From the NCBI GenBank assembly GCA_963402885.1, contig OY727095.1, forward strand, positions 14,513,001 to 14,577,000: DNA of 64,000 nt, read 5' to 3'. This document shows positions 6,741 to 64,000 of the stretch, in pieces. The notes under the pieces were generated by a model. That model worked only from the letters and a program-made list of their open reading frames with translations. It made no database searches and was not told the origin of the DNA. Numbering within the stretch: the first letter of the stretch is position 1; each line of letters opens with the position of its first letter. Origin of the DNA: Antedon bifida (lineage: Eukaryota; Echinodermata; Crinoidea; Comatulida; Antedonidae). A program made the translations under genes and the position numbers.

Positions 6741-6958
6741 CCTGCACCTGAAGACACACCTGCACTTGAAGACACACCTGCACCAGAAGACACACCTGCA
6801 CCAGAAGACACACCTGCACCAGAAGACACACCTGCACCAGAAGACACACCTGCACCAGAAGACACACCTGCACCAGAAGATGCGCCTGCACCAGAAAACA
6901 CACCTGTACCAGAAGATGCGCCTGCACCAGAAGCCACATCTATACCAGAAGACATATA
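6741..6958. repeat. 18-bp minisatellite, about 12 copies, open in several frames
   Basis: The unit is CCAGAAGACACACCTGCA. Because 18 is a multiple of three and the unit lacks stops, long frames run through it on both strands. One plus-strand frame (6726-6965) would encode an acidic proline-rich PEDTPA repeat; a minus-strand frame would encode Ser-Gly-Ala-Gly-Val repeats. The copies at the 3' side are more diverged. No start context, splice sites or homology allow a firm choice, so it is annotated as a repeat rather than a gene. Confidence 0.85.
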
Positions 6959-24200: not shown

Positions 24201-27200
24201 TATATGCTGATGATTTATTACTATTCGCAGACACAGAAAAGGCTTACAAAATTTAATAATTATATTAGAAATATTTTGTGACACATGGGGTCTTAGAAAT
24301 GTAAATGTAAACAAATAAAAAATAATGGTATTTAAAAAAGGTGAAAAATTAAGAAAATATGAAAAATGGTATTACATAAACATTCAAATGGAAGTTGTTA
24401 AATCGTATACTTACTTGGGAGTGGTTTTCAATTCAAATGGTCAATGGAATAACACAATTGAACACAATTGTGAAAAAGCAAATAACGCACTATTTACAAT
24501 CAAGTCAGTCATTACAGCAAAACAAAATATCTACCAGAGAATATATGGAACCACATTTTTGACATCAAAGTTTACCAATTTTAATTTACGGGAGTGAGAT
24601 ATGGGGCTTTTCGAATTTATCACAAATTGATCATTTACATACACGTTTTTTAAGATTTATTTTAGGCATTGGAAACAGCACACCCAGCGTGGCTGTCGGA
24701 TCAGAATTAGGCAGACTATCCTTAAAACATTGATTGCTTTATTTCTATTATTCATTATTGGTTACAAATCATTGAAATGGATAAAAATAGATTTCCTTTT
24801 AAATGTTACATGTTTCAACTAATAGAAATGAACATTGTTGGGCTAAACAAGTGAACGATTTGCTTTGTTCCACTGGCTATGGCTACGTCTGGTACAATCA
24901 GAAAGTTGAGAAGAGTTTATTAATGATTTTAATAAACTTTATAATATTAAACCGTGAGCTACTTAGGTAGTGCATTGTTTCTCTCATTGGTTATCCGCAC
25001 TTGGCGGATAACCCCTTGTTATTGTCAGGATCTTTTTTTTTTTTCTATCTTATTCTTCTTTCTTTCCCAGAATGTTGTCAGCAGCGTATCTCTAATACTT
25101 GTCAACATAAGATTATATAACTTTGTCAGAAGATTGACCTCTAACTGTAGATATGCAAGAAACTTCGTTTTATGATTTTAGTTTTGCGCAACGTGACTTA
25201 CGCGCGATTTTATGAATTTTAATGATTAATCATAGATTAAAAACCAAAAGTCATTTTGTATTGAAACTTAGTGAAAATTTAAGTTATATCATTAAGCGCA
25301 AACTTTCTATGGATTAAAAATGGCATGTTTCACAGAAAGTTACGTTAAAATTTCAAAATGCGAAAAATCAATTTCTAATCAACTTTCTACACGTTTCATG
25401 ACATTTTGAGCATATAAAAAATTCCCACGAACGCGCAAATTTTTACGCGCGCGTGCGCATGTGCCGTTAAAAACATACTTTTTTCGCGTGATTTATGTTT
25501 TTCCAGCCTTTTCTAGTAATTTTACCAACTTTTAAACAATTGCGCCTTAAAATCACGTCATACGAGCACGTGGAATTGGATAATTTGCACGCGTTTTTGA
25601 TGAAAAAGTTCAAAAATTCGTCAAAATTATGCCTTTTTTTAAACAGTCATAGATTCTAAACTACATTATGAAGTTTATTTTTTATTACATATTATTTCTT
25701 TTTCATTTTTTTTTCATTTCATTTATTTCACTATCATCATCGCAGCCTTAGCTGAATTACAAAGATATTTACATTTTCTCAATATTAAAATTTGTATAAA
25801 AGTATAAAACCAATGATAATTATATATAAAAAAGGAGGCAATTTACACAAGAAATACAATACAGGAACATTCAACAAGTTTAGCATTAAAATATTAAAAT
25901 AGAAACTAGAATTTAATTCGTCACTTTGACGAATTATAGGTGATCATTTTTATCATTTTAATGAAATTAACATTTTTTAAACATGCACGTACGTTGATGT
26001 ACGCCATCCTATGACATGATGCATAAACACTTATAGCGCTGAGTTGTACCTATTATGTGTCATATACAGTATGTACAGTATATACTGTATATCTATATAC
26101 AGTGTAGCATAGGTGAAATTATGGGACCCACATCGTGTTCTAATTTTTTGGTATGATGGAATTATCAAAATAAACTCGAAGATGACAATTTCGAAAGATA
26201 ATGAATTGAGCAAATAAATATAAGGATTGGAAGAGAATTTGACACGTAGAAGCGCAATGCGCGCTCTTTGAAATTTGATTAACTACGACTAATGAAATTT
26301 AAAAACTACTTTTTAACTTCAACTGGCCATATGATAACATCACAACATCCGATAGGCTTAATTTTTATATGAATTCATATCTACATTTCATCAGCTTTCA
26401 TAATAAGTTATAATCTTCAAGGTTACCTTTAATTCTGAAGAGCTATAAGATATTCAAATGTATGGTGTAGCTGAAATTACACGATCTAGTTTATTCAAGT
26501 TTTTACGCGTGATGACGTCATCAAAATAAAAATGTTGACAACTCATGAGAAAGATAATTAATTGAGCAAGCACATACTAAAATTTCTGCAAAAATCAGGC
26601 TCAAATAACGGAGATGCGCTCTATTGAATGTGATAACCCACACAAAAAGATAAAAATTACTAATTTTTAAATTGAAGTGGCCATTTGATGACGTCATACC
26701 ATTTTGTACGTCTAATGTGTACATGAATATGTATCTACAACCCAATGGCTTCCCGAATAAGTTAAAAAAATTCGGAGCTGACTCAAATTTGGTGAATGTA
26801 CTAAGGATGGTGAGTAGAATGCGATTTGTATAAAAAATTGCAATTTTTACGCTTTGTAAGTATCGCGCGCGCAAAATATTTTTTTTGCGCAGTAATTTTT
26901 TGAAACACGCAAATGGCCTAATTCATGCTCTAAATTGATTAAAACGTAATTTTGAGCTTTTTAAATTTTTAATGCGCGATTCCACGCGCTTGACCCTACG
27001 TGCGCGTGCATTTTTATTCGCTAATATGTTTACCCTTAACCTGAAGTTTACGTGTAGTGAATTTCATTAATATGTGATAATTAATTATGGAGATGTGATT
27101 TATAATGTGATTTCACAAAATGGCGTATAATTGACGTCACAGATGAGTGATCACGCTGAAAAGCTTATTAGGACTAAATTAAAGTATTTGAAAGACATTC

Positions 27201-30200
27201 TGAAATTTTGGTAATCATTGGCATTAAACTTTTTGAGATATTTGTTACACAAAATCTGTACAGAAAGAAATTGCAAAGAAACATTTTTTTTTTACAAAAA
27301 CAATTTCTCACTAGAATTTAATTCGTCACTTTGACGAATTATAGGTGATCATTTTTATCATTTTAATGAAATTAACATTTTTTAAACATGGACGTACGTT
27401 AACATACCATCGTAAAAGTTGATGTACGCCATCCTATGACATGATGCATATACACTTATAGCGCTGAGTTGTACCTATGTGTCATATACAATATGTACAG
27501 TATATACTGTATATCTATATACAGTGTAGCATAGGTGAAATTATGGGACCCACATCATGTTCTAATTTTTTGGTATAATGGAATTATCAAAATAAACTCG
27601 AAGATGACAATTTCGAAAGATAATGAATTGAGCAAATAAATATAAGGATTGGAAGAGAAATTGACCCGTAGAAGCGCAATGCGCGCTCTTTGAAATTTGA
27701 TTAACTACGACTAACGAAATTTAAAAACTACTTTTTAACTTCAACTGGCCATATGATAACATCACAACATCCGATAGGCTTAATTTTTATATGAATTCAT
27801 ATCTACATTTCATCAGCTTTCATAATAAGTTATAATCTTCAAGGTTACCTTTAATTCTGAAGAGCTATAAGATATTCAAATGTATGGTATAGCTGAAATT
27901 ACACGACCTAGTTTATTCAAGTTTTTACACGTGATGACGTCATCAAAATAAAATGTTGACAACTCATGAGAAAGATAATTAATTGAGCAAGCACATACTA
28001 ACATTTCTGCGAAAATCGGGCTCAAATAACGGAGATGCGCTCTATTGAATGTGATAACCCACACAAAAAGATAAAAATTACTAATTTTTAAATTGAAGTG
28101 GCCATTTGATGACGTCATACCATTTTGTACGTCTAATGTGTACATGAATGTGTATCTACAACCCAATGGCTTCCAGAATAAGTTAAAAAAATTGGGGGTC
28201 ACCTGCCATTCTGAAGAGTTATATTCATTTTAAAAAGGCCTTATTTTTCACAATTTTCAGCACTTTGATGCAATTAATTTGCGCATTTTGTCATTTTTAA
28301 CCTGCTCGTATAGCGTTATTTTAAGTCGGAACTGACTCAAATTTGGTGAATGTACTAAGGATGGTGAGTAGAATGCGATTTGTATAAAAAATTGCAATTT
28401 TTACGCCTTGTAAGTATCGCGCACGCGAAATATTTTTTTTGCGCAGTAATTTTTTGAAACACGCAAATGGCCTAATTCATGCTCTAAATTGATTAAAACG
28501 TGATTTTGAGCTTTTTAAATTTTTAATGCGCGATTCCACGCGCTTGACCCTACGTGCACGGGCGTTTTTATTTGCTCATATTTTTACCCTTGACCTGAAG
28601 TTTACGTGTAGTGAATTTCATAAATATGTGATAATGAATTATGGATATATGATTGATAATGTGATTTCACAAAATGGCGTATACGTGACGTCACGGATGA
28701 GTGATCACGCTGAAAAGCTTATTAGGACTAAGTTAAAGTATTTGAAAGACATTCAGAAATTTTGGTAATCATTGACATTAAACTTTTTGAGATATTTGGT
28801 ACACAAAATCTGTACAGAAAGAAATTGCGAAGAAACATTTTTTTTTACAAAAACAATTTCTCACTAGAATTTAATTCGTCACTTTGACGAATTATAGGTG
28901 ATCATTTTCATCATTTTAATGAAATTAACATTTTTTAAACATGCATGTACGTTAACATGCGATCGTAAATGTACGCCATCCTATGACATGATGCATATAC
29001 ACTTATAGTGCTGAGTTGTACCTATTATGTGTCATATACAATATGTACAGTATATACTGTATATCTATATACAGTGTAGCATAGGTGAAATTACGGGACC
29101 CACATCATGTTCTAATTTGTTGGTATGATGGAATTATCATAATAAACTCGAAGATGACAATTTCGAAAGATAATGAATTGAGCAAATAAATATACGGATT
29201 GGAAGAGAATTTGACACGTAGAAGTGCAATGCGCGCTCTTTGAAATTTGTATACATTTGACGAAAGAGAGAAAAAAACTACTTTTTAACTTCAACTGACA
29301 ATTTCATAATGTCACAACATCCGATAGGCCTAATTTTTATATGAATTCATATCTACATTTCATCAGCTTTTATAATAAATTATAATCTTCAAGGTCACCT
29401 TTAATTCTGAAGAGCTGTAAGATATTCAAATGTATGGTGTAGCTGAAAATACACGACCTTGGTTTTTCAAGTTTTTACGCGTGATGACGTCATCAAAATA
29501 AAAATGTTGACAACTCATGAGAAAGATAATTAATTGAGCAAGCACATACTAAAATTTGTGCAAAAATTGGGTTCAAATAACGGAGATGCGCTCTATTGAA
29601 TGTGATGACCCACACAAAAAGATAAAAATTACTAATTTTTAAATTCAAGTGGCCTTTTGATGACGTCATATCATTTTGTACGTCTAATGTGTATATACAT
29701 TTATATCTACAACTCATTTGCTTCCATATTAAGTTAAAAAAATTGGGGGTCATCTTCCATTCTGAAGAGTTATATTCATTTTAAAAAGGCCCTACTTTTG
29801 ACCATTTTTAGCACTTTTGTACAATTAATGTGCGCATTTTGTCATTTTTAATGTGCTCGTATAGCGTTATTTTAAGTCTGAATGGACTCAAAGTCGGAGA
29901 ATGTACTAAGGATTATGAGTAGAATGTGATGTGTACATCAAATTTTATTTTTTACGCTTTTTAAAAATCCCGTGCGCAAAAACATGTTTTTGCGCAGTAA
30001 TTTTTTAAAACACGCAAATGGCCTATTTCATGCTCTAAATTGATCAAAACTTAATTTTGAGCTTTTTAAAATTTTAACGCGCGATTCCACGCGCATGACC
30101 TTGAAACGCGCGAGTTTTTATTTGCTAATATTTTTACCCTTGACCTGAAGTTTACGTGTAGTGAATTTCATTAATATGTGATAATGAATTATGGAGATAT

Positions 30201-33200
30201 GATTGATAATGTGATTTCACAAAATGGCGTATACGTGACGTCACGGATGAGTGATCACGCTGAAAAGCTTATTATGTCTAAGTTAAAGTATTTGAAAGAC
30301 ATTGTGTAATTTTTGTGATCATTGACATTTAACTTTTTGAGATAATTGTTACACAAATTTGTACAGAGAGAAATAAATAATAAGAATAAGAAGAAGAATA
30401 AAGATTTGATACAATAACAATAGGTGATCATTTTATTCTAAATGATCACCTAACTAGAATTTAATTCGTCACTTTGACGAATTATAGGTGATCATTTTTA
30501 TAAATTTATTGACATTAATATTTTTTAAACATGCACGTATGTTAACATACGATCGGAAAATGTTGATGTATGCCATCCTATTATACGCTTATAGTGCTTA
30601 GTTGTGCCTATTATATGTCATATCACATTATGTACAGTATACTGTATATCTATATACAGTGTAGCATTGGTGAAATTACGGACACACATCATGTTCTAAG
30701 TTTTTTGCACTGATGACATTATCAAAATAAACTTGTGGATACCAATATCGAAAGATAATGAATTGAGCAATAAAATATAACAATTAGAAGAAAATTTGGT
30801 ACGTAGAAGCGCGGTGCGCGCTCTTCAAAATGTGTATAACTTTGACGAAAGAGATGAAAAAACTACTTTTTAACTTCAACTGGCCATATGGTAACTTCAT
30901 AACATTCGATAGGCTTAATTTTTATATGCATTCATATCTACATTTTACCAGCTCTCATAATAAGTTATAAACATCAAGGTCAACTTTAATACAGAAGAGC
31001 TGTAAGGTATTCAACTATACGTTGTAGGTGAAATTACGTAACCACCGTTATTCAAATTTTAAGACGTGATGACGTCATCGAAATGAAAATATTGGCAACT
31101 CATGAGTAACATAATTGGTTGAGGTAGAATATATTGAAAATTTAAAAAAAATCGAGCACAGATAAGCGAGTTACGCTCTGTTGAATATGGTGGTCTATGA
31201 CAAAATGGGAAAAAACCCTATTTTAAAAATTCATGTGGCCAAATGATGACGTCATACCATTTTGTACGTCTAATGGGTATATACATTTATATCTACAACT
31301 CATTAACTTCCATAATAAGTTAAAAAAAATGGGGGTCATCTTCCATTCTGAAGAGTTATATTCATTTTAAAAAGGCCTTATTTTTTACCATTTTTAGCAC
31401 TTTTGTACAATTATTGTGCGCATTTTGTCATTTTTAACGTGCTCGTAAAGCGTTATTTTAAGTCGGAATGGACTCAAATTTAGTGAATGTACTAAGTAAG
31501 ATCACTAGGATGCAATTTGTATAAAAAATTGGTATTTTTTAAGCTTTCTATGTACGCACGCGCAAAAACACGTTTTTGCGCAGTAATTTTTTAAAACACG
31601 CAAATGGCCTAATTTATGCTCTAAATTGATCAAAACGTAATTTTGAACTTTTTAAATTTTTGACGCGCGATTTCACGCGAATGACCTTGAAACGCGCAAG
31701 TTTTTATTTGCTAATATTTTTACCTTTACCTGAAGTTTACGTGTAGTAAATTTCATTAATATGTGATAATGAATTATGGAGATATGATTCATAATGTGAT
31801 TTCACAAAATGGCGTATAAATGACGTCACGGTTGAGTGATCACGCTGAAAAGCTTATTATGACTAAGTTACAGTATTTGAAAGACATTGTGAAATTTTGG
31901 TAATCATTGACATTTAACTTTTTGAGATATTTGTTACACAAAAAGTGTACAGAAAGAATAAAAAAAATAAAAAACTAGAATTTAATTCGTCACTTTGACG
32001 AATTATAGGTGATCATTTTTATCATTTTTATTGACATTAATATTTTTAAACATGCACGTATGTTAACATACGATCGGAAAATGTTGATGTATGCCATCCT
32101 ATTATATACGCTTATAGTGCTGAGTTGTGCCTATTATATGCCATATACATTATGTACAGTATATACTGTATATCTATATACAGTGTAGCATTGGTGAAAT
32201 TACAGACACACATCATGTTCTAATTTTTTTGGTATGATGACATTATCAAAATAAACTTGTGGATAACAAGATCGAAAGATAATGAATTAAGCAATAAAAT
32301 ATAACAATTGGAAGAAAATTTGGCACGTAGAAGCGCGGTGAACGCTCTTTGAAATTTGTATAACTTTTATGAAAGAGACAAAAAAACTACTTTTTAACTT
32401 CAACTGGCCATATCATAATGTCACAACATCCGATAGACTTAACTTTTATATGAATTCATATCTACATTTCATCAGCTTTCATAATCAATTATAATCATCA
32501 AGGTCACCTTCAATTCTTAAAAGCTGTGAGATATTCAAATTTACGGTGAAGGTCAAATTACACAACCTACGTTATTCAAGTTTTTACGCGTGATGACGCC
32601 ATCAAAATAAAATGATGGCAACTCATGATAAAGATAATTAATATAGCAAGCACATACTGAAATCTGAGTGAAAATCGGGCTCAAATAACGGAGATACGCT
32701 CTATTGAATGTGATAATCTACAAAAAAAGATAAAAAATCCTAATTTTTAAATTCAAGTGGCCATTTGATGACGTCACAAAATGTTGTACATCAAATGTGT
32801 ACATGAATTCATCTCTACAACTCAGTAGCTTCCATAATAAGTTAAAAAAATTGGGGGTCACCTTCCATTCTGAAGAGTTATATTCATTTTAAAAAGGTCT
32901 TATTTTTTACCATTTTTAGCACTTTTGTACAATTAATGTGCGCATTTTGTCATTTTTTAACGTGCTCGTATAGCACTATTTTAAGTCAGAATGGACTCAA
33001 AATCGGTGAATGTACTAAGAATTGTGAGTAGAATATGATTTATACATCACATTTTATTTTTTACGCTTTCTAAGATTCGCGTGCGCAAAAACGTGTTTTT
33101 GCGCAGTAATTTTTTGAAACACGCAAATGGCCTAATTCATGCTCTAAATTGATCAAAACTTAATTTTGAGCTTTTTAAATTTTTAACACGTGATTTCACG

Positions 33201-36200
33201 CTTATGACCTTGAAACCCGCAAGTTCTTATTTGCTAATATTTTTACCCTTGACCTGAAGTTTACGTGTAGTGAATTTCATTAATATGTGATAATGAATTA
33301 TGGAGATATGATTGATAATGTGATTTCACAAAATGGCATATAAATGACGTCACGGTTGAGTGATCACGCTGAAAAGCTTATTAGGATTAAGTTACAGTAT
33401 TTGAAAGATATTGTGAAATTTTTGTGAACATTGACATTTTACTTTTTGAGATAATTGACACACAAAATCTGTACAGAAAGAAATAAAGCGGAATAAGATT
33501 TCATACAATAACAATAGGTGATCATTTTATTCTAAATGATCACCTAAAAAAATAAAGATTTCATACAATAACAATAGGTGATCATTTTATTCTAAATGAT
33601 CACCTAACTAGAATTTAATTCGTCACTTTGACGAATTATAGGTGATCATTTTTATCATTTTAATGAAATTAACATTTTTTAAACAAGCATGTACGTTAAC
33701 ATACGATCGTAAAAAGTTGATGTACACCATCCTATGACATGATGCATATACACTTATAGTGCTGAGTTGTACCTATTATGTGTCATATACAATATTGTAT
33801 ATCTATATACAGTGTAGCATAGGTGAAATTACGGGACCCACATCGTGTTCTCAATTTTTGGTATGATGGAATTATCAAAATGAACTTGAAGATGACAATT
33901 TCGAAAGATAATGAATTGAGCAAATAAATATAAGGATTGGAAGAGAATTTGACACGTAGAAGCGCAATGCGCGCTCTTTAAAATTTGTATAACTTCGACT
34001 AAAGAAATTTAAAAACTACTTTTTAACTTCAACTGGCCATATGATAACATCACAACATCCAATAGGCTTAATTTTTATATGAATTCATATCTACATTTCA
34101 TCAGCTTTCATAATAAGTTATAATCTTCAAGGTCACCTTTAATTCTGAAGAGCTATCAGATATTCAAATGTATGGTGTAGCTGAAATTACACGACCTAGG
34201 TTATTCAAGTTTTTACGCGTGATGACGTCATTAAAATAAAAATGTTGCCAACTTATGAGAAAGATAATTAATTGAGCAAGTACATACTAAAATTTTTGCA
34301 AAAATCGGGCTCAAATAACGGAGATGCGCTCTATTGAATGTGATAATCCACACAAAAAGATAAAAATTACTAATTTTTAAATTCAAGTGGCCATTTGATG
34401 ACGTCATACCATTTTGTACGTCTAATATGTATATATATTTATATCTACAACTTATTGGCTTCCATAATAAGTTAAAAAAATTGGGGGTCACCTGCCATTC
34501 TGAAGAGTTATATTCATTTTAAAAAGGCCATATTTTTTACCATTTTTAGCACTTTTGTACAATTAATGTGCACATTTTGTCATTTTTAACGTGCTCGTAT
34601 AGCGTTATTATAAGTCGGAATGGACTCAAAGTCGGAGAATGTACTAAGGATTGTGAGTAGAATGTGATGTATACATCAAATTTTTTTTTTTACGCTTTTT
34701 AAAAATCGCGTGCGCAAAAATGTGTTTTTGCGCAGTAATTTTTTGAAACACGCAAATGGCCTATTTCATGCTCTAAATTGATCAAAACTTAATTTTGAGC
34801 TTTTTAAAATTTCAACGCGCGATTTCACGCGCATGACCTTGAATCGCGCGAGTTTTTATTTGCCAATATATTTTAGCTTGACCTGAAGTTTACGTGTAGT
34901 GAATTTCATTAATATGTGATAATGAAATATGGAGATATGATTGATAATGTGATTTCACAAAATGGCGTATACGTGACGTCACGGATGAGTGATCACACTG
35001 AAAAGCTTATTATGTCTAAGTTAAAGTATTTGAAAGACATTGTGTAATTTTTGTGATCATTGCCATTCAACTTTTTGAGATATTTGTTACACAAAAAGTG
35101 TACAGAAAGAAGAATAACAATAACTAGATCTTAACTCGTCACTTGAGGACGAGTTTGGTTATCCGCCCGCAACAAACGTATCTTGCGCATTCAAGTACTT
35201 TTCAATCATGACTTTTCCAAAAAGTAGCCTATTCGAAAATAAAACTCCCTTTCAGAGTAATAAGCAAATAAATCCTTTTATTTAATTATTTTCCCGTGAC
35301 GGGATTCGATCCCGGTACCTCTGATACCAAAGTCGGTTGCACTACACATCGAGCCATATGAGCACCTGCTGAAGAAAATCCGAAGAACAATTACTCGTTC
35401 ATTCGGTATGTCGTGAACCCCTCGATGCAAGTTGATTATTACCTATCAAACTAAATCATAATTTTTACTATAATGAAATCTTCACACATTTTAAACAGTA
35501 ACATATTATGAAAGTTCATACTTTCAAGTTTTATATATTAAAATGTGAAGTAAAAAGATAAACGTTATGTTTATTGTTTTGCTCTTTGAAAATGTTAGTG
35601 TTTGTTTGATGATCAAAATTTCAAAAATTATATTTAATATGCACATAATGTAGCCATCAAACACGTTTTAGCATTCAAGACTATAATAAATCAGACCTAT
35701 GATTCATACACTGCAAGAAAATAAAATAAAAAATGGGGGTAACCTTGCATTCTGATGAACTGTATCGTTTTTAAAAGTAGACATATTTTGCAACATTTTC
35801 ACAATTATTAGACATTTTACGTGCGCAACCAGTCATGTTTAACGTGCTCGTGTAACGCCATTTCCAGTTGAATAGTGAATAAAATAACGCAAAATTGTTA
35901 ACTGAAGTTTGAAAAACACAGTCTATGCAAAATAAAGGCTCATACGCGTTCCCTGCGCCGTGCGCGCGTGAAAATGTGCGCATCTGGTGGGAATTTTTTA
36001 AACGCTTAAAATGACCTGAAACGTGCGCTAATTTAATCAGAAAATGATTTGAAGCATTTTAAAATTTCAAACGCCGTTTACGCGCGCACTTTCTAATGTT
36101 ACAAAATTCGGTAGCGATAAAACAGTTTACAATTGATGTGAAGCAACCGTGGTTGAAAATTTCGTTAAAAAATATTTATTTGTTTCCAAGTTATGATCAA

Positions 36201-39200
36201 TTTAAGAATTTCAGAAATTCGCGCGTAACTTACGCTACGTGGCTCTGACAGCGTCCAAAAGCTTCGCAGTACAACTTCAGTTAAATGTCTAAATGTTTAC
36301 AAAGTTACAACATGTTATGTTAACACGTTGCAGAGAAAAGCTGAACACAACAAGTGGCGGAAATATGGAAGAATAATAAAAAAAAGAAACACTACAATTC
36401 CAAGGGCTTATCCGCTTGAGGCGGATAACCAAAAAGAAACACTACAATTCCAAGGGCTTATCCGCTTGAGGCGGATAACCAAAAAGAAACACTACAATTC
36501 CAAGGGCTTATCCGCTTGAGGCGGATAACCAAAAAGAAACACTACAATTCCAAGGGCTTATCCGCTTGAGGCGGATAACCAAAAAGAAACACTACAATTC
36601 CAAGGGCTTATCCGCTTGAGGCGGATAACCAAAAAGAAACACTACAATTCCAAGGGCTTATCCGCTTGAGGCGGATAACCAAAAAGAAACACTACAATTC
36701 CAAGGGCTTATCCGCTTGAGGCGGATAACCAAAAAGAAACACTACAATTCCAAGGGCTTATCCGCTTGAGGCGGATAACCAATAAAGATTTTGTACAATA
36801 ACAATAGGTGATCATTTTATTCTAAATGATCACCTAAAAAAAACACCAAAAAGGACCAATAAGAATTGCATAGCTGTACTGGGTGGTATATAATGATTAT
36901 TCATTTAGAAGCGAGATAAGGTATGGTATTGCACTTTTTCTATATCTTTCAACTCTGCATTTGGGTTGTTGATACTTTACACGTCTTAGTTTCATGTTAC
37001 TTACATTCTTCACTGGAAACCATTTTCCAAAATGAATACTTTTTGAACAATTCAGAGCAAACTTATAGCATAGATTACGCCTTCTATCAGATAAAGTGTC
37101 TAAAGAAAGATCATTGAGTGCTTGGTCATAACATATGTAGTCATTACACAATATTATTCTGCAAGCCCTTTTTTGGACAGATTCTATCATATCACTTTGT
37201 TTCTTAGTGAGACTAGAATGCCATACTGGGACAGCATATTCAACACTTGGTCTTATGTAACTCTTAAATACATCTACAAGATCAAATTTCGGAAGATTGA
37301 ACTTTCTTAATCTACACAATATATGCAGACGTCTGCTGGCTTTGGATACAATTTCTTTAACATTACGGTCCCATTTGAGGTTGGCTTGTATCCATAAACC
37401 TAGTAACTTAGTTTCATTAACGATTTCAATTGTAGCATTACCAATCAAAAGGGGTTCATGTTCATATTGATTTCTTTGAAAGTTAAAATACATAGTTTTA
37501 CATTTAGTTGGGTTAAGTTTTAGTTTGTTTTCATTAGACCATACATTCAGTAAAGCAACATCATTCTGAATTGAGGAAATTTCATCCTTTTTTACTATCT
37601 GTCCTATGCACAAATCATCTACATATTTCCAAGTTTTACATGGCGAGTCTTGCACGGCATCATTAATTAGAGCAAGAAAGATCATAGGCCCAAGGAGTGT
37701 GCCTTGAGGGACGCCACATGTTAGATTAACACTCATTGATAATGTGGATTTATAGCGTACTTGTTGGGTTCTGTTTGACAAAAAGCTAATTAACCACGGT
37801 ACAATTTCAGGTCTACAGCCAAGTGTTACTAATTTAGAAACTGCTATTGTGTGGTCAACACAATCGAATGATTTACTAAAGTCAGTTAAAACTAACTGAC
37901 CAACAGATTTGGGAATGTTACTACCTTCATAGAACACATTTAGTAGATCAACCAAATTATGGGTTGTAGAAAAGTGTTTACGGCAACCATATTGGTTGTT
38001 ATCAAGATTTTTCTCGATATCTGTTAAGAGCCATTTTTTAATGAAGCCCTCAGCTACCTTAGCATATTATGGAAGTTGATGAGTTGTAGATATAGAATCA
38101 TGCATCGATATGGCTAACCGGACATTGTGACGTCATCGTATGGCCATTCGAATATAAATTATATTGTCTAGGCCAAGCAATTATCTTTCGCATGATATAC
38201 CATTTTAAAAATTGTGATGACGTCATCATGTCCAAAAGCGTCAATAACTTGGGTCACTTATTTTCACCTATTCTGCACTGTATGTAGTACGTATACAATA
38301 TATAGTGTAAACTGTATATACTTAGACGTGACACAAAATAGAGAGCGCACTAACATTTTTTCAATGGCATAATCGTTTTTCTGTGCGTAATATTCTAACG
38401 TATGACGTGCACGTGGCGTTTGCGCTGCGGATAACCTAACTCGTCCATAGTGACGAGTTCAAATCTAGTTTTATTATAAATTACCATAAAACGTACATTT
38501 AAGACAAGGAATAACCTGGTTTAATGTTTTTAAAGTAATATATATGCATTATTTTTACAAAACGTAGATATTTGTAGGGAATGGGTCTTTGAAATATATT
38601 TTTAACTCTTACATAATGGTTTAATCTTGTATGTATTGGATAAGAAAGTTCCTTAGCATATACAAGTTTGTTAAACATTGTCATACATTACTATCAGTTT
38701 TTGTTCTGTATTCTCAACCTTTTTTAGTAGGCCTACACCAAGCCAAGGATAAATATTTGCAATTCAATTCAATTCATTAAATGCAATATTCAATAGATAT
38801 TGAATAAATATTCTCCACACTATTAAAAATACATAAAATAATAATTATATAAACTTGTAAGATAATAATTAATAAAACATAGTATGTGTGGAAGGAAACC
38901 TTGTAAGTATAAAACTTTAAGCCTAGGCTCCCAGAAAAAAGTAACAAGTTGGAAAGAAAATGAAACAAAATATGAATGCAATATTCTATTATTCTGTGTG
39001 TAAGTACTCTACTGAAGCTCATTAATTCATAACAACTTTTACAATTATTTAAGCGTTTATGCTCAAATATTACTTATTATTTTGTGCCTATTTGTATGGG
39101 AAGTCGTAAGATAATACAATTGTAGGAGCCAAGGTAAAATACATGATACGTATGATGCTTAATTTTACATACAGAGAAATAGTATTCTTAAGCTGGCTTA

Positions 39201-51656: not shown

Positions 51657-51789
51657 TTAACAATTATTAATACTGATAGCTTCTAGTGTAAAAGTAAGCC
51701 TACACATTCTGTTCTGAAAATATGAAAGGTAAAACATAATTAATCAGACATAAACCTTTGCATTAAAGGCTACAACAATTAAATTGCAC

Positions 51790-52075
51790 CTGTATGCTGG
51801 CATTACTAAATGAAGATGACCTGTATGCTGGTGTTACTGAATGAAGATGACCTGTATGCCGGTGTTACTGAATGAAGATGACCTGTATGCTGGTGTTACT
51901 GCATGAAGATGAACTGTTTGCTGGTGTTACTGAATGAAGCTGACATGTATGCCTGTGTTACTGAATGAAGCTGACATGTATGCCTGTGTTACTGAATGAA
52001 GATGACCTGTATGCTGGTGTTACTGAATGAAGATGACCTGTATGCCAGTGTTACTGAATGAAGATGACCTGTGTA
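51790..52075. repeat. 31-bp minisatellite, about 9 copies
   Basis: Unit GATGACCTGTATGCTGGTGT followed by TACTGAATGAA, with variants (GAAGCTGACATG, GCC/GCT). It lies upstream of the Roco start codon. Confidence 0.9.
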
Positions 52076-52079
52076 TTCC

Positions 52080-54090: not shown

Positions 54091-54093
54091 TTG

Positions 54094-54402
54094 CCAGGCG
54101 CGGATCCAATGTTAGATTGGGTTTTCAGTGTTCAAATGTTATGTCACCTGTGTTTTTAACGGTAGAAAATGTACGATCATTTTGCTGATTTCTGTGCAAT
54201 AAATGGGAGTGTTATTTCCAGGCCAACTACTACTAGTTGGAGGCGCCATTTATCATAAATTTTATGTGCGAAAGGGACCATTTCCGACGATCTAGGGGTG
54301 TCATTTACCAAAATTTGCTTTGCCACACCCCCCACCATGGGGGGGGGGGGGGGGGGGCTGTGGCTCAAGTACTTTGTGTCTGGAAGGATCAGCCCCTGTT
54401 TG
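54094..54402. mobile_element. possible MITE with a CAGG-type end and a long G tract
   Basis: The left end CCAGGCGCGGATCCA and the right end TGGAAGGATCAGCCCCTG are imperfect inverted repeats. GATCC-containing ends beside C- or G-rich tracts occur in many invertebrate DNA transposons. A run of 19 G lies at 54339-54357. Boundaries and family are uncertain. Confidence 0.45.
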
Positions 54403-54994
54403 CCCCTCCCTGACAAGACCCCCTTGTTATGCGGCTGCGTATTGTTTACACATCCACTTTATATTCTGTCAACTGTTAATTTTATTTATGAACAAAACAT
54501 GCAAGTGTTGGGATACAGCAAGTTAAAAACATAAAAAATGTAGGAAGATTCCTCCAAAAATGAGAAATTAATATGAATTTTATAAAATTTATAAATTTTG
54601 GAATGTAGGCCTATATCATTTATATTATTTATCATTTTTTCCAGAATATCAATAAATTATATATTGGGTACCTAACTGATTAAAAAAGCAGCCAATTCGA
54701 AACATGACCGATTTCAAACGCGGCCGTGGATTATCTGGTTATCTTGGGAAGCAGGACAGGGGCCTTCTGGCCAAATTAATAATATAACACTAACAGCAGA
54801 ACTTTATTTTCAGAGAGAATATGGGGTAGCACTACTAGGGATAAAGATGCAATAAAGCAAACATTTTGAACACATTGTCGAAAATGATCATTTTTTAGTC
54901 ACGCAAACGAGGTAAACAAGTTACGCCCTCTGTTGGCCGCTTGGCGAATGCACGAAATAAACAAGGTTTTCGAAGTAATAAATTGAATATAAAA

Positions 54995-56530
54995 CTAGAC
55001 ATGAAACTCGTCACTTTGACGAGTTAGTTATCCGCACAACGACAAACGCCACGTGCACGTCATACGTTGGAATATTGCACACAGATAAAGATTATGGCAT
55101 TATGACAAGAACTGAAGAATATGATATGCTGTTAGTGCTGAATTCTGTCAATTTGTGTCATATAGTATATACATGCAAAGAGTATAATCTGTATACATAT
55201 TACATACAGTGTAGAATAGGTGAAATTACGGGACCCGCCATTTATTCCAATTTTTAACATGGCGACGGTATCAAAATGAAACACTTAAATAGCAATTTCT
55301 GGAGGAAATTATCTCAGGAACAACATATTAACGTGTAGAAGAAATTTGAATACGTAAAATATAGATGCGCACCCTTTTAAATGTGATGAACTATTACGCA
55401 AAATATGAAAATACGACTTTTTTTATTCAACTGGCCATATGATGACGTCACAACATCCGATTGGCAAAATGTTTACATGAATTCGTATCTACAATCCAAT
55501 AGCTTCCAGAAAACGTTTTAATCGTGATTATCACATTTTATTCTTACGAGCTATTACAGATTAAAATTTACTGTAAAGATGAAATTAATGACCCACGTAA
55601 TTAAAATTTTTAGGCATGATGACGTCATAAAAATTAAAATATTTTTATTTCATGCTAAAGAAAGTTGATTGACCTACACAATATATAAATTTAGGAGAAA
55701 AAGGAATACAGATAAGCATGATGCGCTCCATTGAATGTGATGAGCAATAACGAAAGAGACAAAAATCCTATATTTTACATTCGTGTGGCCATACGATGAC
55801 GTCACAATGTTTTTTTAGCCTTATCGATGCATGATCCGATATCTACAACTCATCAACTTCTAGATTTTGTAATAAAAATAAACGGTTCACGGTTTACTTT
55901 AGAAACTATGACTGTTTAAAAAAAGACATAATTTTGACGATTTTTTAAGCTTTTTCATAAAAAACGCGCACGAATTGTCTAATTCAACGTGTTTGTATGG
56001 CGTTATTTAAACTGGAAAAGGTCTAAATTGTTTTCAAAATTTACTAGGAAAGACTTGAAAAATATAATTCAAGACAAAAAAAATATGTTTTTAACGCTAC
56101 GTGCGCACCGCGTGCGTAAAAAATTGCGCGCCCGTGGGAATTTTTGACATGCTCAAAATGACAAGAAACGCATAAAAAGTTGATTAGAAATTAATTTTGC
56201 GCATTTTGAAATTTTAAATGCGCATGCGCGCGTAACTTCTTGTGAAACATGCCATTTTTAATCCGTAGAAAGTTTGCCCCTGATATGACTTAAATTTTGT
56301 CAAAGTGTCAATACTAAATGACTTTTGGTTTTTAATCTATAATCAATCATTGAAATTCATAAAATTGCGCGTAAGTCACGTTGCGCAACTATAACGTCAT
56401 TCAAAAATAGGAGGTGCACAACTTCACGTAAATGCCCATATGTTGTCAAAGTTATGAAATGTTATGTTTACACATTTTAGAGAAACGTGACTCACAAAAA
56501 GGAAGGAAGGATCCAAGAATAATACAGAAA
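54995..56530 (+). mobile_element. family B unit X1
   Basis: Starts CTAGACATGAAACTCGTC, 5' hairpin AACTCGTC/GACGAGTT, then TAGTTATCCGC. The core has TGACGTCA at 55443, 55620 and 55797, 177 bp apart. The interior is rich in GCGCG words. There is no 3' hairpin at its end, only an AT-rich tail before the next CTAG. Nearly identical to X2 (58047-59585). Confidence 0.78.
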
Positions 56531-58046
56531 CTAGATTTGAACTCGTCACTTTGACGAGTTCGGGTTATCCGCGCAAATGCAACATGCAGATACTTTAAAC
56601 TATGAGCCTCGACAATTACTATGCCATCCTATGACATGAAATAAATATGTTTACAGTGCTGAATTGTACCTATTTTGTAGCATACAGCATATTACAGTAT
56701 TTACAGAATACACTGTATATGTTATACAGTGTAGCATAGACGAAATTACGAGACCCATCTTTTAAATCCAATTATTAACACGATGATGTCATCAAATTGA
56801 CATATAAACATAACTATTTTAGAAGCTGATTATCTAAATAATTACATTAATACAAATTTGAAGAATTTTGGGCACGTAAAAGTGAGATGCGCTCTCGTTT
56901 AAATGCAATGAACTTTTACGCAAGAGATGAAAATATGACTTTTTGAATTAAACTGGCCATATGATGACGTCACAACATCTAATTGGCAAAATATTCACAT
57001 GAATTCGTAACTAAAATCCAATAGCTTCCAGAAAACGTTTTAATCATGATTATCACTTTTTATTCTGACGAGCTATAACAGATTAAAATTTACTGTAATG
57101 ATAAAAATAAGTGCCCTACGTTATTTACATTTTTAGACATGATGACGTCATAAAAATTAAAATATTTTTAACTCATGCGAAAGATAGTTGATTGACGTAG
57201 ACAATAATAAAATCTCGGGGGAAATGGAATACGTATAAGCGAGATGCGCTCTGTTGAATGTGATGAGCAATAACGAAAGAGACAAAAATCCTATATTTTA
57301 CATGCGTGTGGCCATACGATGACGTCATAACATCCGAGAGGTGAAAATTCTGCATGAAATCATTTCTACAATTTATCTTCTTGCATAATAAGTTAAAAAA
57401 ATTGGGGGTCACCTTCGATCCTGAAGAGCTATAATAGATTCAAAATAGGCATTATTTTGACAATATTTTGTAACTTTTTAAACAAAAACGCACGCAAATG
57501 GTCTAAATCAACATGTTCGTATGACGTCATTTTAATTTGAAATGATGTAAATCTTTTTTAAAATGACTAAGAAAGGCTGTAAAATCATAATTCAAGAAAA
57601 AAACACATGATTTTCATGCTCCGTGCGCACCTTACGCGTAAATTTTTTCGCGCGCGTGGAAATTTTTGACATGCTCAAAATGTCATGATCAGCGTAGAAA
57701 GTTGATTAGAAATTAATTTTGCGCATTTTGAAATTTTAAATGCGCGTGCGCGCGTAACTTCTTGTGAAACATGTCATTTTTAATCCATAGAAAGTTTGCC
57801 CTTGATATGACTTAAATTTTTACCAAGTGTCAATACAAAATTACTTTTGGTTTATAATCTATGACCAATCATTGAAATTCATAAAATTGCGCGTAACTTA
57901 CGCTGCGCGACTCTAACGTCATTAAAAATATGGAGGTGCACAACTTCAGGTAAATGTCCATATAATGACAAAGTTATACAAAAGATATATTCACAAGCAA
58001 TAGGGGATATGCGACGCACAAAAATCCGGGAAAGAAAGAAGAATAA
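56531..58046 (+). mobile_element. family B unit Y1
   Basis: Starts CTAGATTTGAACTCGTC, then the hairpin and CGGGTTATCCGC. Same plan as X1 but more diverged, with TGACGTCA at about 56965, 57141 and 57319. Ends without a 3' hairpin. Confidence 0.78.
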
Positions 58047-59585
58047 CTAGACATGAAACTCGTCACTTTGACGAGTTAGTTATCCGCACAACGACAAACG
58101 CCACGTGCACGTCATACGTTGGAATATTGCACACAGATAAAGATTATGGCATTATGACAAGAACTGAAGAATATGATATGCTGTTAGTGCTGAATTCTGT
58201 CAATTTGTGTCATATAGTATATACATGCAAACAGTATAATCTGTATACATATTACATACAGTGTAGAATAGGTGAAATTACGGGACCCGCCATATATTCC
58301 AATTTTTAACATGGCGACGGTATCAAAATGAAACACTTAAATAGCAATTTCTGAAGGAAATTATCTCAGGAACAACATATTAACGTGTAGAAGAAATTTG
58401 AATACGTAAAATATAGATGCGCACCCTTTTAAATGTGATGAACTATTACGCAAAATATGAAAATACGACTTTTTTTATTCAACTGGCCATATGATGACGT
58501 CACAACATCCGATTGGCAAAATGTTTACATGAATTCGTATCTACAATCCAATAGCTTCCAGAAAACGTTTTAATCGTGATTATCACATTTTATTCTTACG
58601 AGCTATTACAGATTAAAATTTACTGTAAAGATGAAATTAATGACCCATGTAATTAAAATTTTTAGGCATGATGACGTCATAAAAATTAAAATATTTTTAT
58701 CTCATGCTAAAGAAAGTTGATTGACCTACACAATATATAAATTTAGGAGAAAAAGGAATACAGATAAGCGTGATGCGCTCCATTGAATGTGATGAGCAAT
58801 AACGAAAGAGACAAAAATCCTATATTTTACATTCGTGTGGCCATACGATGACGTTACAATGTTTTTTTAGCCTTATCGATGCATGATCCGATATCTACAA
58901 CTCATCAACTTCTAGATTTTGTAATAAAAATAAACGGTTCACGGTTTACTTTAGAAACTATGACTGTTTAAAAAAAGACATAATTTTGACGATTTTTTAA
59001 GCTTTTTCATAAAAAACGCGCACGAATTGTCTTATTTAACGTGTTCGTATGGCGTTATTTAAACTGGAAAAGGTCTAAATTGTTTTCAAAATTACTAGGA
59101 AAGACTTGAAAAATATAATTCAAGAGAAAAAAATATGTTTTTAACGCTACGTGCGCACCGCGTGCGTAAAAAATTGCGCGCCCGTGGGAATTTTTGACAT
59201 GCTCAAAATGACAAGAAACGCATAAAAAGTTGATTAGAAATTAATTTTGCGCATTTTGAAATTTTAAATGCGCGTGCGCGCGTAACTTCTTGTGAAACAT
59301 GCCATTTTTAATCCGTAGAAAGTTTGCCCCTGATATGACTTAAATTTTGTCAAAGTGTCAATACTAAATGACTTTTGGTTTTTAATCGATAATCAATCAT
59401 TGAAATTCATAAAATTGCGCGTAAGTCACGTTGCGCAACTCTGACGTCATTCAAAAATAGGAGGTGCACAACTTCACGTAAATGCCCATATGTTGACAAA
59501 GTTATGAAATGTTATGTTTACAAGTTTTTGAGATACGTGAGACACAAAAATGAGGGAGAAAGAAATAAGAAAAAAAAAAAAAAAA
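58047..59585 (+). mobile_element. family B unit X2
   Basis: Near-identical to X1 at an offset of about 3052 bp, with few substitutions; a poly-A run closes it at 59573-59585. Confidence 0.8.
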
Positions 59586-61218
59586 CTAGACATGAAACTC
59601 GTCACTTTGACGAGTTAGTTATCCGCACGACAAACGCCACGTGCACGCCATACGTTGGAATATTGCACACGGAAAAAGATTATGGCATTATGACCTGAAC
59701 TGAAGACTATGATATGTTGTTATTGCTGAATTCTATTATTTTGATTCATATATAGTATACACAGTGTAATCTGTATACATATCACATACAGTGTAGAATA
59801 GGGGAAATTACGGGACCCGCTATTTATTGCAATTTTTAACATGTTGATGGTTTTAAAATGAAACGCGAAGGTAGCAATTTTGGAAGGAAATTATCTCAGC
59901 AACAACATATTAACGTGTAGAAGAAATTTAAATACGTAAAATATTAATGCGCGCTCTTTTAAATGTAATGAATTATGACGCAAAAGATCAAAATACGAAT
60001 TTTTTTATTCAACTGGCCATATGATGACGTCACAACGTTGGATTGGAAAAATTTTCACATGAATTCGTATCTACAATCCAATAGCTTCCAGGAAACGTTT
60101 TAATCGTGATTATCACATTTTATTCTTATGAGCTATAACAGATTAAAATTTACTGTAAAGATAAAATTAATGACCCACGTAATTTAAATTTTTAGGCATG
60201 ATGACGTTATAAAAATCAAAATATTTTTAACTCATGCGAAAGATAGTTGATTGACCTAGATAATATTAAAATCTCGGAGAAAATGGAAGACGGATAAGCG
60301 TGATGCGCTCCATTGAATGTGATGAGCAATAACGAAAGAGACAAAAATCCTATTTTTTACATTTGTGTGGCCATACGATGACGTCACAACATCCGTAAGG
60401 AAAAAATTCTGCATGAATTCATATCTACAACATATCTGCTTACATATTAAGTTAAAAAACTCGGGGGTAACGGTTGATCCTGAGGAGCTATAATAGATTC
60501 AAAATAGGCATAATTTTGACAATATTTTGTAACTTTTGCAACTAAAACGCATGCAAATGGTCTAAATCAACGTGTACGTATGACGTCATTTTAATTTGAA
60601 ATGATGTCAATCTTTTTAAAAATGACTAGGAAAGGCTGGAAAATCACAATTTAATAGAAAAAAACATGATTTTCATGTTGCGTGCGCACTGCACGCGTAA
60701 AATTGTTCGCGCGCGCGGGAAATTTTGACATGCGCAAAATGTCATGAACGGCGTAAAAAGTTGATTAGAAATTAATTTTGCGCATTTTAAAATTTTTAAT
60801 GCGCGTGCGCGCGTAACTTCTTGTAAAACACGCAATTTTTAGTTAACTAAAAGTTTGCCCTTGATATGACTTAAATTTTCATAAAGGGTAAAAAAAAAAT
60901 TACTCTTGGTTTTTAAGCTATGATCAATCATTAAAAATCATAAAATCGCGCGTAAGTCACGTTGCGCAACTCTGACGTCATTCAAAATAGGAGGTGCACA
61001 ACTTCACGTAAATGCCCACATGTTGTCAAAGTTATGAAATATTATGTTTACACATTTTAGAGATACGTGAGCCACAAAAAAACGGGAAAGAAATAAGAAT
61101 AATACAGAAAAAAAATAATGATCCACTACAATAACAAGGAGTTATCCGCTACTAAGCGGATAACTAAAAAAGTAACAGGACGATTACAAGGAGTTATCCG
61201 CTACTAAGCGGATAACTA
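59586..61218 (+). mobile_element. family B unit Z1 with two 3' hairpins
   Basis: Starts CTAGACATGAAACTCGTC. The tail carries two 3' hairpins (GTTATCCGC-TACTAA-GCGGATAAC) at about 61140-61165 and 61190-61218. Its 3' two thirds match Z2 (62538 onward) at an offset of about 2953 bp. Confidence 0.78.
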
Positions 61219-62537
61219 ACTTATTTTGAGCACGTAAAAGTGAGATGCGCTCTCGTTTAAATGCAATGAACTTTTACGCAAGAGATGAAAATATGACTTT
61301 TTGAATTCAACTGGCCATATGATGACGTCACAACATCTGATTGGCAAAATATTCACATGAATTTGTATCTACAATCCAATAGCTTCCAGAAAACGTTTTA
61401 ATCATGATTATCACTTTTTATTCTGACGAGTTATAACAGATTGAAATTTACTGTAAAGATAAAAATAGGTGACCCACGTTATTTACATTTTTAGACATGA
61501 TGACGTCATAAAAATTAAAATATTTTTAACTCATGCGAAAGATAGTTGATTGTCCTAGACAGTATTAAAATATATGAGGAAATGGAATACGTATAAGCGA
61601 GATGCGCTCTATTTAATGTAATGAGCAATAACGAAACAGTAAAAAATCCAATATTTTACATTCGTGTGGCCATACGATGACGTCATAACATCCGAGGGGT
61701 AAAGATTCTGCATGAATTCATATCTACAACATATCTGCTTCTATATTAAATTTAAAAAATTGGGGGTAACGGTTGATCCTGAGGAGCTATAATAGATTCA
61801 AAATAGGCATAATTTTGACAAAATTTTGTCACTTTTGCAACTAAAACGCGCGCAAATGGTCTAAATCAACGTGTTCGTATGACATCATTTTAATTTGAAA
61901 TTATGTCAATCTTTTTTAAAATGACTAGGAAAGGCTGTAAAATCATAATTCAAGAGAAAAACACATGATTTTCATGCTCCGTGCGCACCTTACGCATAAA
62001 TTTTTTCGCGCGCGTGGGAATTTTTGACAAGCTCAAAAAGTCATAATCAGCGTAGAAAGTTGATTAGAAATTAATTTTGCGCATTTTGAAATTTTAAATG
62101 CGCGTGCGCGCGTAACTTCTTGTAAAACATGCCATTTTTAATCCATAGAAAGTTTGCGCTTGATATGACTTAAATTTTCAGTAAGTGTCAATACAAAATG
62201 ACTTTTGGTTTATAATCTATGATCAATCATTGAAATTCATAAAATCGTGCGTAACTTACGCTGCGCGACTCTAACGTCATATAATGAAGTTTCTTGCACA
62301 TCTACAGCTGCAGCCCAATCATTTGACAAAGTTATACAAAGTTACGTTCACAAGCAATAGGGGATATGCGACACACAAAAATCCGGGAAAGAAAGAAGAA
62401 TAACAAAGAAGATGAAAAAAAAGATATTTACAATCACATGGGTTATCCTGCAACTAAGTTGCGGATAACCAAAAAAAAAAAAAAAAAAAAAGATCCTGAC
62501 AATAACAAGGGGTTATCCGCCAAGTGCGGATAACCAA
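61219..62537 (+). mobile_element. family B unit Y2, 5'-truncated, with two different 3' hairpins
   Basis: Begins inside the unit at the point matching about 56865 of Y1, directly after the hairpins of Z1, so the 5' hairpin is missing. Its tail has one hairpin with a TGCAACTAAGTTGC loop region near 62459-62488, a run of about 20 A, and a second hairpin (GGTTATCCGC-CAAGT-GCGGATAACC) before AACTAG. Confidence 0.75.
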
Positions 62538-64000
62538 CTAGACATGAAACTCGTCACTTTGACGAGTTAGTTATCCGCACGACAAACGCCACGTGAACAT
62601 CATACGTTGAAATATTACACACAGAAAAAGATTATGGCATTATGACCTGAACTGAAGAATATGTTGTTATTGCTGAATTCTATTGTTTTGATTCATATAT
62701 AGTATACACAGTATAATTTGTATCCGTATCACATACAGTGTACATGTAGAATAGGTGAAATTACGGGACCCGCTATTTATTGCAATTTTTAACATGTTGA
62801 CGGTTTTAAAATGAAATGCGAAGGTAGCAATTTTGCAAGGAAATTATCTCAGCAACAACATATTAACGTGTAGAAGAAATTTTAATACGTGAAATATTAA
62901 TGCGCGCTCTTTTAAATGTAATGAACTATGACGCAAAATATGAAAATACGACTTTTTTTATTTAACTGGCCATATGATGACGTCACAACATCCGATTGGC
63001 AAAATTTTCACATGATTTTGTATCTACAATCCAATAGCTTCCAGAAAACGTTTTAATCGTGATTATTACATTTTATTCTTACGAGCTATAACAGATTAAA
63101 ATTTACTATAAAGATAAAATTAATGACCCACGTAATTTAAATTTTTAGGCATGATGACGTTATAAAAATTAAAATATTTTTAACTCATGCGAAAGACAGT
63201 TGATTGACCGAGATAATATTAAAATCTCGGAGAAAATGGAAGACGGATAAGCGTGATGCGCTCCATTGAATGTGATGAGCAATAACGAAAGAGACAAAAA
63301 TCCTATTTTTTACATTTGTGTGGCCATACGATGACGTCACAACATCCGTAAGGAAAAAATTCTGCATGAATTCATATCTACAACATATCTGCTTACATAT
63401 TAAGTTAAAAAACTCGGGGGTAACGGTTGATCCTGAGGAGCTATAATAGATTCAAAATAGGCATAATTTTGACAATATTTTGTAACTTTTGCAACTAAAA
63501 CGCATGCAAATGGTCTAAATCAACGTGTACGTATGACGTCATTTTAATTTGAAATGATGTCAATCTTTTTAAAAATGACTAGGAAAGGCTGAAAAATCAC
63601 AATTTAATAGAAAAAAACATGATTTTCATGTTGCGTGCGCACTGCACGCGTAAAATTGTTCGCGCGCGCGGGAAATTTTGACATGCGCAAAATGTCATGA
63701 ACGGCGTAAAAAGTTGATTAGAAATTAATTTTGCGCATTTTAAAATTTTTAATGCGCGTGCGCGCGTAACTTCTTGTAAAACACGCAATTTTTAGTTAAC
63801 TAAAAGTTTGCCCTTGATATGACTTAAATTTTCATAAAGGGTAAAAAAAAAATTACTCTTGGTTTTTAAGCTATGATCAATCATTAAAAATCATAAAATC
63901 GCGCGTAAGTCACGTTGCGCAACTCTGACGTCATTCAAAATAGGAGGTGCACAACTTCACGTAAATGCCCACATGTTGTTAAAGTTATGAAATATTATGT
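62538..64000 (+). mobile_element. family B unit Z2, running off the window
   Basis: Starts CTAGACATGAAACTCGTC with 5' hairpin and TAGTTATCCGC. Near-identical to Z1 over its second half. The 3' end is outside the window. Confidence 0.78.

Follow-up and report, generated by a model that had tools for sequence, protein, structure and literature searches.

The window analyzed here is a stretch of 64,000 nucleotides from the crinoid Antedon bifida (GenBank assembly GCA_963402885.1, contig OY727095.1, here C8, positions 14,513,001 to 14,577,000 of the forward strand). It holds two arrays of repeats that are very likely non-autonomous Helentrons (HINEs), lying on the minus strand in both arrays, carrying matched asymmetric terminal inverted repeats (ATIRs) at their two ends and having been inserted one within another. 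The ATIRs fall into four classes, A to D, and 5X or 3X denotes a 5' or 3' terminus with an ATIR of class X. The features of the window that bear on this are the following, a slash marking an element boundary.

25905 to 36836, minus strand: array 1, a HINE array with its ends in the order 5A, 5B (eight times), 3B, 3A, 5A 5A, 3A, 3A, 5A, 3A, 3A, 3A
36805 to 36836, minus strand: class A 5' terminus with palindromic ATIR, the outer 5' end of array 1
36406 to 36780, minus strand: eight tandem class B 5' termini with a 50-bp period, the second arm imperfect
35123 to 36405, minus strand: class B HINE body and 3' terminus, flanked by the outermost A 5' hairpin and the body of A6
33607 to 35122, minus strand: class A HINE body and 3' terminus (A6)
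31974 to 33606, minus strand: class A HINE (A5) with two 5' hairpins ahead, at 33515-33546 and 33575-33606
30453 to 31973, minus strand: class A HINE body and 3' terminus (A4)
28863 to 30452, minus strand: uninterrupted class A HINE (A3), its 5' hairpin at 30421-30452
27310 to 28862, minus strand: class A body and 3' terminus without a 5' hairpin of its own (A2), junction CTAGT/GAGAAATTG
25905 to 27309, minus strand: class A body and 3' terminus without a 5' hairpin of its own (A1), junction CTAGT/GAGAAATTG; the 3' end of array 1
24989 to 25013, plus strand: class B 5' hairpin of a plus-strand B HINE
38063 to 38469, plus strand: 3' part and class B 3' terminus of the plus-strand B HINE that starts at 24989
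54994 to 62535, minus strand: array 2, with its ends in the order 5B 5B, 5C 5C, 3C, 3C, 3B, 3C (5B at 62511-62535 and about 62441-62470, 5C at 61192-61217 and 61140-61165, 3C at 59585, 3C at 58046, 3B at 56530, 3C at 54994)
62537 to 64000, minus strand: class C 3' terminus at 62537, with a body that extends past the end of the window

Read on the minus strand, an element starts at a T, or TA, with a palindromic ATIR that forms a 5' hairpin (the starts are TAGG, TGG or TAG), continues through a T-rich leader and the body, and finishes with a matching 3'-ATIR, a CGTC...GACG hairpin and CTAG/T. The 3'-ATIR stops about 32-33 bp short of the 3' end, and the hairpin and CTAGT beyond it are nearly identical across all ATIR classes. 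The plan of a canonical Helitron (Helitron1), which has a 5'-TC start, no 5' hairpin, a CTRR end and an A/T target, was rejected for these repeats, given their 5' hairpin, their other starts and their T-rich target; their CTAG end is compatible with the canonical CTRR.

The initial annotation of the window had described two repeat families, each with its own end word, and the motifs it pointed out are in place and far more frequent than chance would allow. The class A word AGGTGATCATTT occurs 14 times in the window, all exact even though one mismatch was allowed (shuffle mean 0.60, maximum 3), and the class B word GGTTATCCGC 32 times at up to one mismatch (shuffle mean 0.83, maximum 4). On its plus strand, array 1 reads as an ACTAGA hairpin followed by AGGTGATCATTT, with hairpin stems AGGTGATCATTT / AAATGATCACCT, and family B has the same plan with GGTTATCCGC in place of the A word. 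Both families were thus correctly recognized, but two further classes and the nesting were overlooked: class C (AGTTATCCGC), the third class in the window, is present at both element ends (3' ends at 54994, 58046, 59585 and 62537; palindromes at 61140-61165 and 61192-61217), and class D (GGTTTTCCGC) is found elsewhere in the genome. Similarly, the family B plan with the stem GGTTATCCGC/GCGGATAACC holds, but a perfect stem is wanting in the eight B hairpins at 36406-36780, which show 99% matches between copies and have the imperfect arm GCTTATCCGC on the plus strand. Units with both ends, as originally claimed, do exist; the bodies and hairpins of array 1 are nevertheless unequal in number, with six A and one B bodies having an ACTAGA-type end versus four A and eight B palindromic hairpins.

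The same ends are abundant throughout the 315.6 Mb of the genome (27 contigs). Exact matches to the 3' hairpin with CTAGT number 829 forward and 724 reverse (1553 together), those to the B/C/D palindromic 5' hairpin with its leader 1086 and 1233, and those to the B/C/D ATIR with the 3' hairpin 1705 and 1585; backwards controls gave 0 for each. The 5' hairpin pattern permits 16 combinations of arms, but the 100 hairpins listed show only the three matching ones (25 were checked by script and 75 by eye), and B, C and D outer arms are all found around one and the same inner stem and loop, GCAACGAAGTTGC. The exact palindrome predicted for class D had 0 matches in the genome; the real D hairpin has a one-base bulge, its arms being as predicted. 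A generic hairpin scan for 5' ends returned mostly chance hairpins and was superseded by the class-based calls.

A search of the genome with the Helitron_like_N profile (PF14214) gave 39 matches, 38 of them above the cut-off and 11 within open frames of 3,003-3,182 aa, and none in any of the 14 control genomes. One such frame, on contig C11, encodes OTU and DUF6570 domains followed by Helitron_like_N, a PIF1 helicase and an Exo_endo_phos (endonuclease/exonuclease/phosphatase) domain; this predicted set is the Helentron combination. The same Helentron polyprotein (L029, minus-strand open reading frame) also has a weak match to Herpes_teg_N (32.7 bits). Past the N-terminal side of the C11 frame lies GCGGATAACC, followed by the hairpin and CTAGT. 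With a DNA query spanning this end, alignments of 98-99% were obtained at two other loci, each some 9 kb away from a match to this Rep-helicase protein (RepHel), and both stop about one base past CTAGT (query position 1690); a third locus (97%) stops earlier, at position 1605, and many places in the genome share the query from about position 1633 on, about 57 bp ahead of the CTAGT point. The C10 copy, about 15.5 kb long, has a B palindrome as its 5' end, near 7,589,597, from which about 1.06 kb of HINE-like sequence leads into RepHel-linked sequence; its 3' end, of class B, was placed at 7,574,066 by a 99% alignment rather than read. The two C11 copies likewise contain HINE-like sequence, its inner 3' end decayed, and in the C8 and C9 copies the inner 3' end of such a stretch has lost its CTAGT. 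All five RepHel loci examined have B-class 5' ends nearby; a 3' end was read directly at one locus and placed by alignment at two.

The end anatomy and, for class B, the ends held in common with a RepHel-endonuclease locus very probably identify the repeats as Helentrons and HINEs, and the class first proposed, a rolling-circle Helentron, is borne out by them. We infer the rolling-circle mode of the repeats from the protein domains only. Once the RepHel locus with the same 3' end was known, readings as Crypton-, IS200/IS605- or MITE-like elements (MITE, miniature inverted-repeat transposable element) were dropped, with no search made for them. One Helentron copy also holds an insert of about 2 kb (L030 about 2560 to L032 about 547) that has inverted TGTACAGCCACATCAAAACCAGG-like ends by eye; its right part has further copies in the genome, and it resembles an unrelated DNA transposon.

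The correspondence of 5' and 3' classes was analyzed in the window and 24 other stretches, which comprise 33 strand-wise arrays with 258 ends. This parse omitted L001-L008, which overlap other stretches, and L041-L043, used for partner questions only; it also excluded wrong-strand palindromes and any 5' call whose leader was poor, and it assigned strands separately, 8 of the 258 ends lying on the minority strand of their own stretch. Since 20 loci came from matches to an A-family query and L039-L040 were picked for their mixed C/D-type ends, the class frequencies are biased and the permutations described below are valid for the chosen loci only. Where a 5' end is directly followed by a 3' end, the two are of the same class in all 63 classified cases (45 A, 8 C, 6 B and 4 D; 34.0 expected from the margins), one more A preceding an unclassified 3' end. 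For 3' ends followed by 5' ends in the same arrays the figure is 48 of 57 (Fisher p 0.00086), although the matched neighbor pairs are not independent events because the copies are related. In a second sample, drawn without recourse to an element query (the first 30 B/C/D 3' ends with letters listed, contig C1 only, exact patterns), class-blind bracket pairing gave 21 same-class pairs out of 22, and 8 of the 30 3' ends had no 5' end within 6.5 kb. With 0 mixed pairs in 63 and 1 in 22, the claim that the two ends match has therefore stood up well.

At the level of the letters, the left arm of the 5' palindrome is complementary to the 3'-ATIR over 10 nt in 92 of the 93 parsed same-class pairs, a figure not used as a test, as it is largely built in: the pairs were formed within classes, and an exact 8-nt core is required for calling a 3' class, which largely fixes 8 of the positions. 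The second arm of the palindrome has a bulge or mismatch in 14 of 27 non-A pairs. The identical inverted repeat measures 11 nt in 65 of 66 class A pairs and 10 nt in classes B, C and D, where the 11th position is often different.

At least five class changes are required on a tree built from 125 bodies and labelled with their 3' classes, in which A forms one clade. Removing two rows that are not HINE bodies, and collapsing every branch under 0.7, leaves the number unchanged. One B body, on a branch of 0.003, groups with D bodies, and the 5' end parsed as its partner is of class B as well. Because of these changes, this B body and the occurrence of GCAACGAAGTTGC with B, C and D arms, it follows that the word has been altered on both palindrome arms and in the 3'-ATIR together, and more than once.

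The order of the ends within the arrays bears on how they were assembled. In 10 multi-class arrays, 51 of 54 possible same-class non-crossing pairings can be made, whereas permuting the 5' labels within arrays gave a mean of 38.95 and a maximum of 47, and reached 51 in 0 of 2000 trials. For example, L039-L040 (C1:9,947,001-9,964,000), which after a leading 3A reads 5D 5A 5D 5C 3C 3D 5C 5C 3C 5D 3D 3C 3A 5C 3C 5C 5B 3B 3C 3D, resolves into 10 of 10 balanced pairs (equalled by 5 of 20000 permutations), and L028-L037 into 7 of 7 (156 of 20000). Successive 5' ends lie 50-78 bp apart in 44 of 47 distances, seven of these 44 belonging to the 50-bp B repeat, and for this reason the insertion target is the T-rich leader. 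New elements sit, as their sequence context indicates, in the leader of another element, mostly 50-78 bp inside it and in the same orientation. Among 27 nested cases, 8 are directly followed by another insertion and 1 has a GA junction, which leaves 18 that are testable; in 11 of these the joined flanks correspond to an uncut copy (at least 95% identity, at most 3 gap columns), which argues for nested self-insertion into the T-rich leader. The flanks of A4 joined across A5, for instance, equal an uninterrupted copy at 100% with 0 gaps. TT precedes 46 of 47 B/C/D 5' ends, T stands ahead of the terminal TA in 75 of 76 A 5' ends, and T follows 110 of 135 3' ends, although T runs make the exact breakpoints ambiguous. 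The empty sites through which the initial annotation had suggested defining the target therefore point to insertion between Ts in a T-rich target with no target site duplication, these sites all being inside other elements.

In the window itself, the class B HINE at 35123-36405 can be read as an insertion in the leader of A6, whose 5' hairpin is probably the one at 36805-36836. The plus-strand B HINE (24989-38469) seems, from its similarity to L030 on both sides, to be split at about 25693/38063 by about 12.4 kb, an insert that comprises array 1 and a reverse-transcriptase-like open reading frame (36897-38066, minus strand, by eye). With array 1 inside it, this HINE seems to record several insertion layers. 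Array 2 permits three of its four possible same-class non-crossing pairings, the 3C at 54994 having no partner in the window.

Several observations weigh against this account. All three missed pairings fall in the window's own two multi-class arrays, and 7 of the 18 joins failed, one at 94% without gaps and six with 12-30 gap columns, which partly reflect length differences in T runs. The second sample contains a single unlike pair, a 5C matched to a 3B with a 3C next in line; a nested B with a 5' start that escapes the exact pattern may account for it. Matching within an element is in itself a consequence of inheritance, and a constraint is argued by the concerted class changes only. The parse contains 92 3' but 76 5' ends of class A. 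Moreover, 15 identical CTAGT/GAGAAATTG junctions on six contigs (in the window at 27310 and 28863 on the minus strand, and in L009, L010, L012, L013, L014, L023, L024, L025 and L028; identity across them 0.847-0.991) place bodies without a 5' hairpin of their own behind a matching inner 3' end. Multi-body composites seem to have spread despite this end; since it did not terminate them, matching is not sufficient, and termination at a matching inner end can fail, unless composites arise otherwise. The Rep-helicase partner that the initial annotation anticipated was found for class B, but no A-, C- or D-ended one among the RepHel loci examined, and the one RepHel flank examined on C16 has no convincing end, only a single chance-like hairpin call. 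In addition, the RepHel gene is antisense to the inferred direction of the elements.

A mechanism that would accommodate these arrays begins with a nick by Rep at one end and displacement of a strand. The ATIR near the 3' end would then pair with the 5' ATIR, or the same protein would read both, and the ATIR match, together with the nearly class-independent 3' hairpin and CTAGT, would mark the end for cutting. If the match does so, the 5' end of one class can pass the 3' ends of another; where 5' hairpins are stacked, the outer 5' end would be copied along with the inner element. We infer that the ATIRs act by strand pairing. Repeated joint changes beside a near-constant 3' hairpin and CTAGT fit pairing, because a recognizing protein would need to keep pace with every one of them. 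We tentatively put forward, as a possibility, that the ATIR is an interchangeable nucleic-acid address: one RepHel-endonuclease would read the 3' hairpin and CTAGT, ATIR pairing would pick the end to be cut, and classes could switch without a change of enzyme. The bracket arrays would then be natural records of the end-matching rule, the outer element ignoring foreign inner ends.

Somewhat less than even chances attach to an alternative that is compatible with the Helentron identity and concerns the role of the ATIR only, namely that the classes are read by different, co-evolved Rep proteins, so that covariation reflects protein specificity rather than strand pairing. The RepHel matches differ in score and profile coverage, so that more than one lineage may exist, and the RepHel copies show B ends only. 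This alternative fits less well with the single inner stem and loop shared by B, C and D outer arms, with the B-class body and its B partner among close D relatives, and with a 3' hairpin and CTAGT that are nearly the same in all classes.

It is rather improbable that these are true tandem arrays, generated by a rolling circle running past the 3' terminator, with the bracket order secondary. In published accounts, bypassed termination is cited for tandem Helitron arrays (PMC4067079), and arrays in which numerous 5' ends accompany a single 3' end are attributed to aberrant rolling circles (review PMC12628747). The GAGAAATTG junctions and the surplus of 3A over 5A fit composites copied as units, the eight 50-bp B hairpins are a tandem repeat that needs slippage or re-mobilization of nested 5' ends, as proposed for the multiple 5' termini of Fusarium elements (PMC5148889), and in A-only arrays class cannot separate nesting from tandem copying. 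However, read-through predicts neither the non-crossing pairing of multi-class arrays above chance nor the uninterrupted copies restored by 11 of the 18 leader joins.

The orientation first annotated is probably reversed: on the minus strand, what had been called the 3' hairpin would be the palindromic ATIR at the 5' terminus, and the supposed 5' hairpin would be the 3' hairpin, which encloses the second ATIR on its inner side and is followed by the terminal CTAG/T. It is only on the minus strand that the terminal ATIR, the other ATIR inside the hairpin and the adjoining CTAG/T match the layout published for Helitron2; given the antisense RepHel, this orientation is well supported by our analysis but not proven. 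That the earlier orientation is nonetheless correct is very unlikely, for although only with the ACTAGA hairpin as the 5' end does RepHel read in sense, the Helitron2 layout, the hairpin-adjoining CTAG/T end and the T-rich target on the inferred strand all fit the opposite direction, and an antisense RepHel is already documented for a few such elements (PMC3627910, PMC4067079).

The window also contains other repeats. A tandem array at 936-4389 consists of 56 copies of a 62-bp unit with 97% matches, and further tandem arrays lie at 6741-6954 (18 bp), 15556-16027 (88 bp), 50829-51188 (71 bp) and 51788-52072 (31 bp). An open frame of 732 aa at 42011-44209 on the plus strand has reverse-transcriptase-like motifs, recognized by eye, and is probably part of an element of the long interspersed (LINE) type.

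How Helentrons define their two ends is treated as a hypothesis in the literature (PMC3627910). The genome combines open partner frames with thousands of end motifs and with related bodies in four end classes, a natural end-exchange set in which pairing can be tested against protein recognition and which gives an unusually clear view of end matching. Furthermore, what looks like a tandem Helitron array can in some cases consist of oriented insertions nested in one another, which bears on annotation and on ideas about the origin of satellite DNA.

Much of the framework is already in print, including ATIR covariation, a pairing role, multiple 5' termini, self-insertion and HINEs. In the portions of the literature available to us, there was no description of multi-class bracket-pairing arrays or of the leader as a shared landing site. 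Helitron2 elements (Bao and Jurka 2013, PMC3627910) have hairpins at both ends and ATIRs of 8-15 bp, the 5'-ATIR lying 0-2 bp from the terminus in the 5' hairpin and the 3'-ATIR directly upstream of the 3' hairpin, positions that recur here; the distance of the 3'-ATIR is 20-30 bp there and about 32-33 bp here. Those authors reported compensatory ATIR changes in two related elements and a reversed RepHel in some, and they proposed that ATIR pairing disrupts the 5' hairpin and sets the end point of replication, whereas the crinoid has four classes in one genome, repeated changes and nested arrays. Helentrons, which combine Rep, helicase, endonuclease and occasionally OTU, and their non-autonomous HINE/DINE-1 derivatives (Thomas et al. 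2014, PMC4067079) resemble the present elements in this domain set, in having such derivatives, in the palindromic subterminal inverted repeats (subTIRs) of mite HINEs, in a T-rich target without target modification and in the reversed RepHel of one Drosophila element. They differ in a 3' distance of 38-60 bp and in an 11-bp family rule, below which the 10-nt repeats of B, C and D fall, and tandem arrays are treated there as bypass. FoHeli Helitrons of Fusarium oxysporum (PMC5148889) share ATIRs and multiple 5' termini, for which self-insertion was suggested as the source, with one nested case as compared with the several multi-class bracket arrays here. Finally, bats, silkworm and plants have tandem Helitron arrays (cited in PMC4067079 and PMC12628747) that are likewise clusters of adjacent elements, but they are ascribed to bypassed termination or aberrant rolling circles, whereas the multi-class junctions here resemble insertions into T-rich leaders. 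To these systems the crinoid genome adds arrays that pair as brackets, together with a body tree on which the class has changed at least five times.

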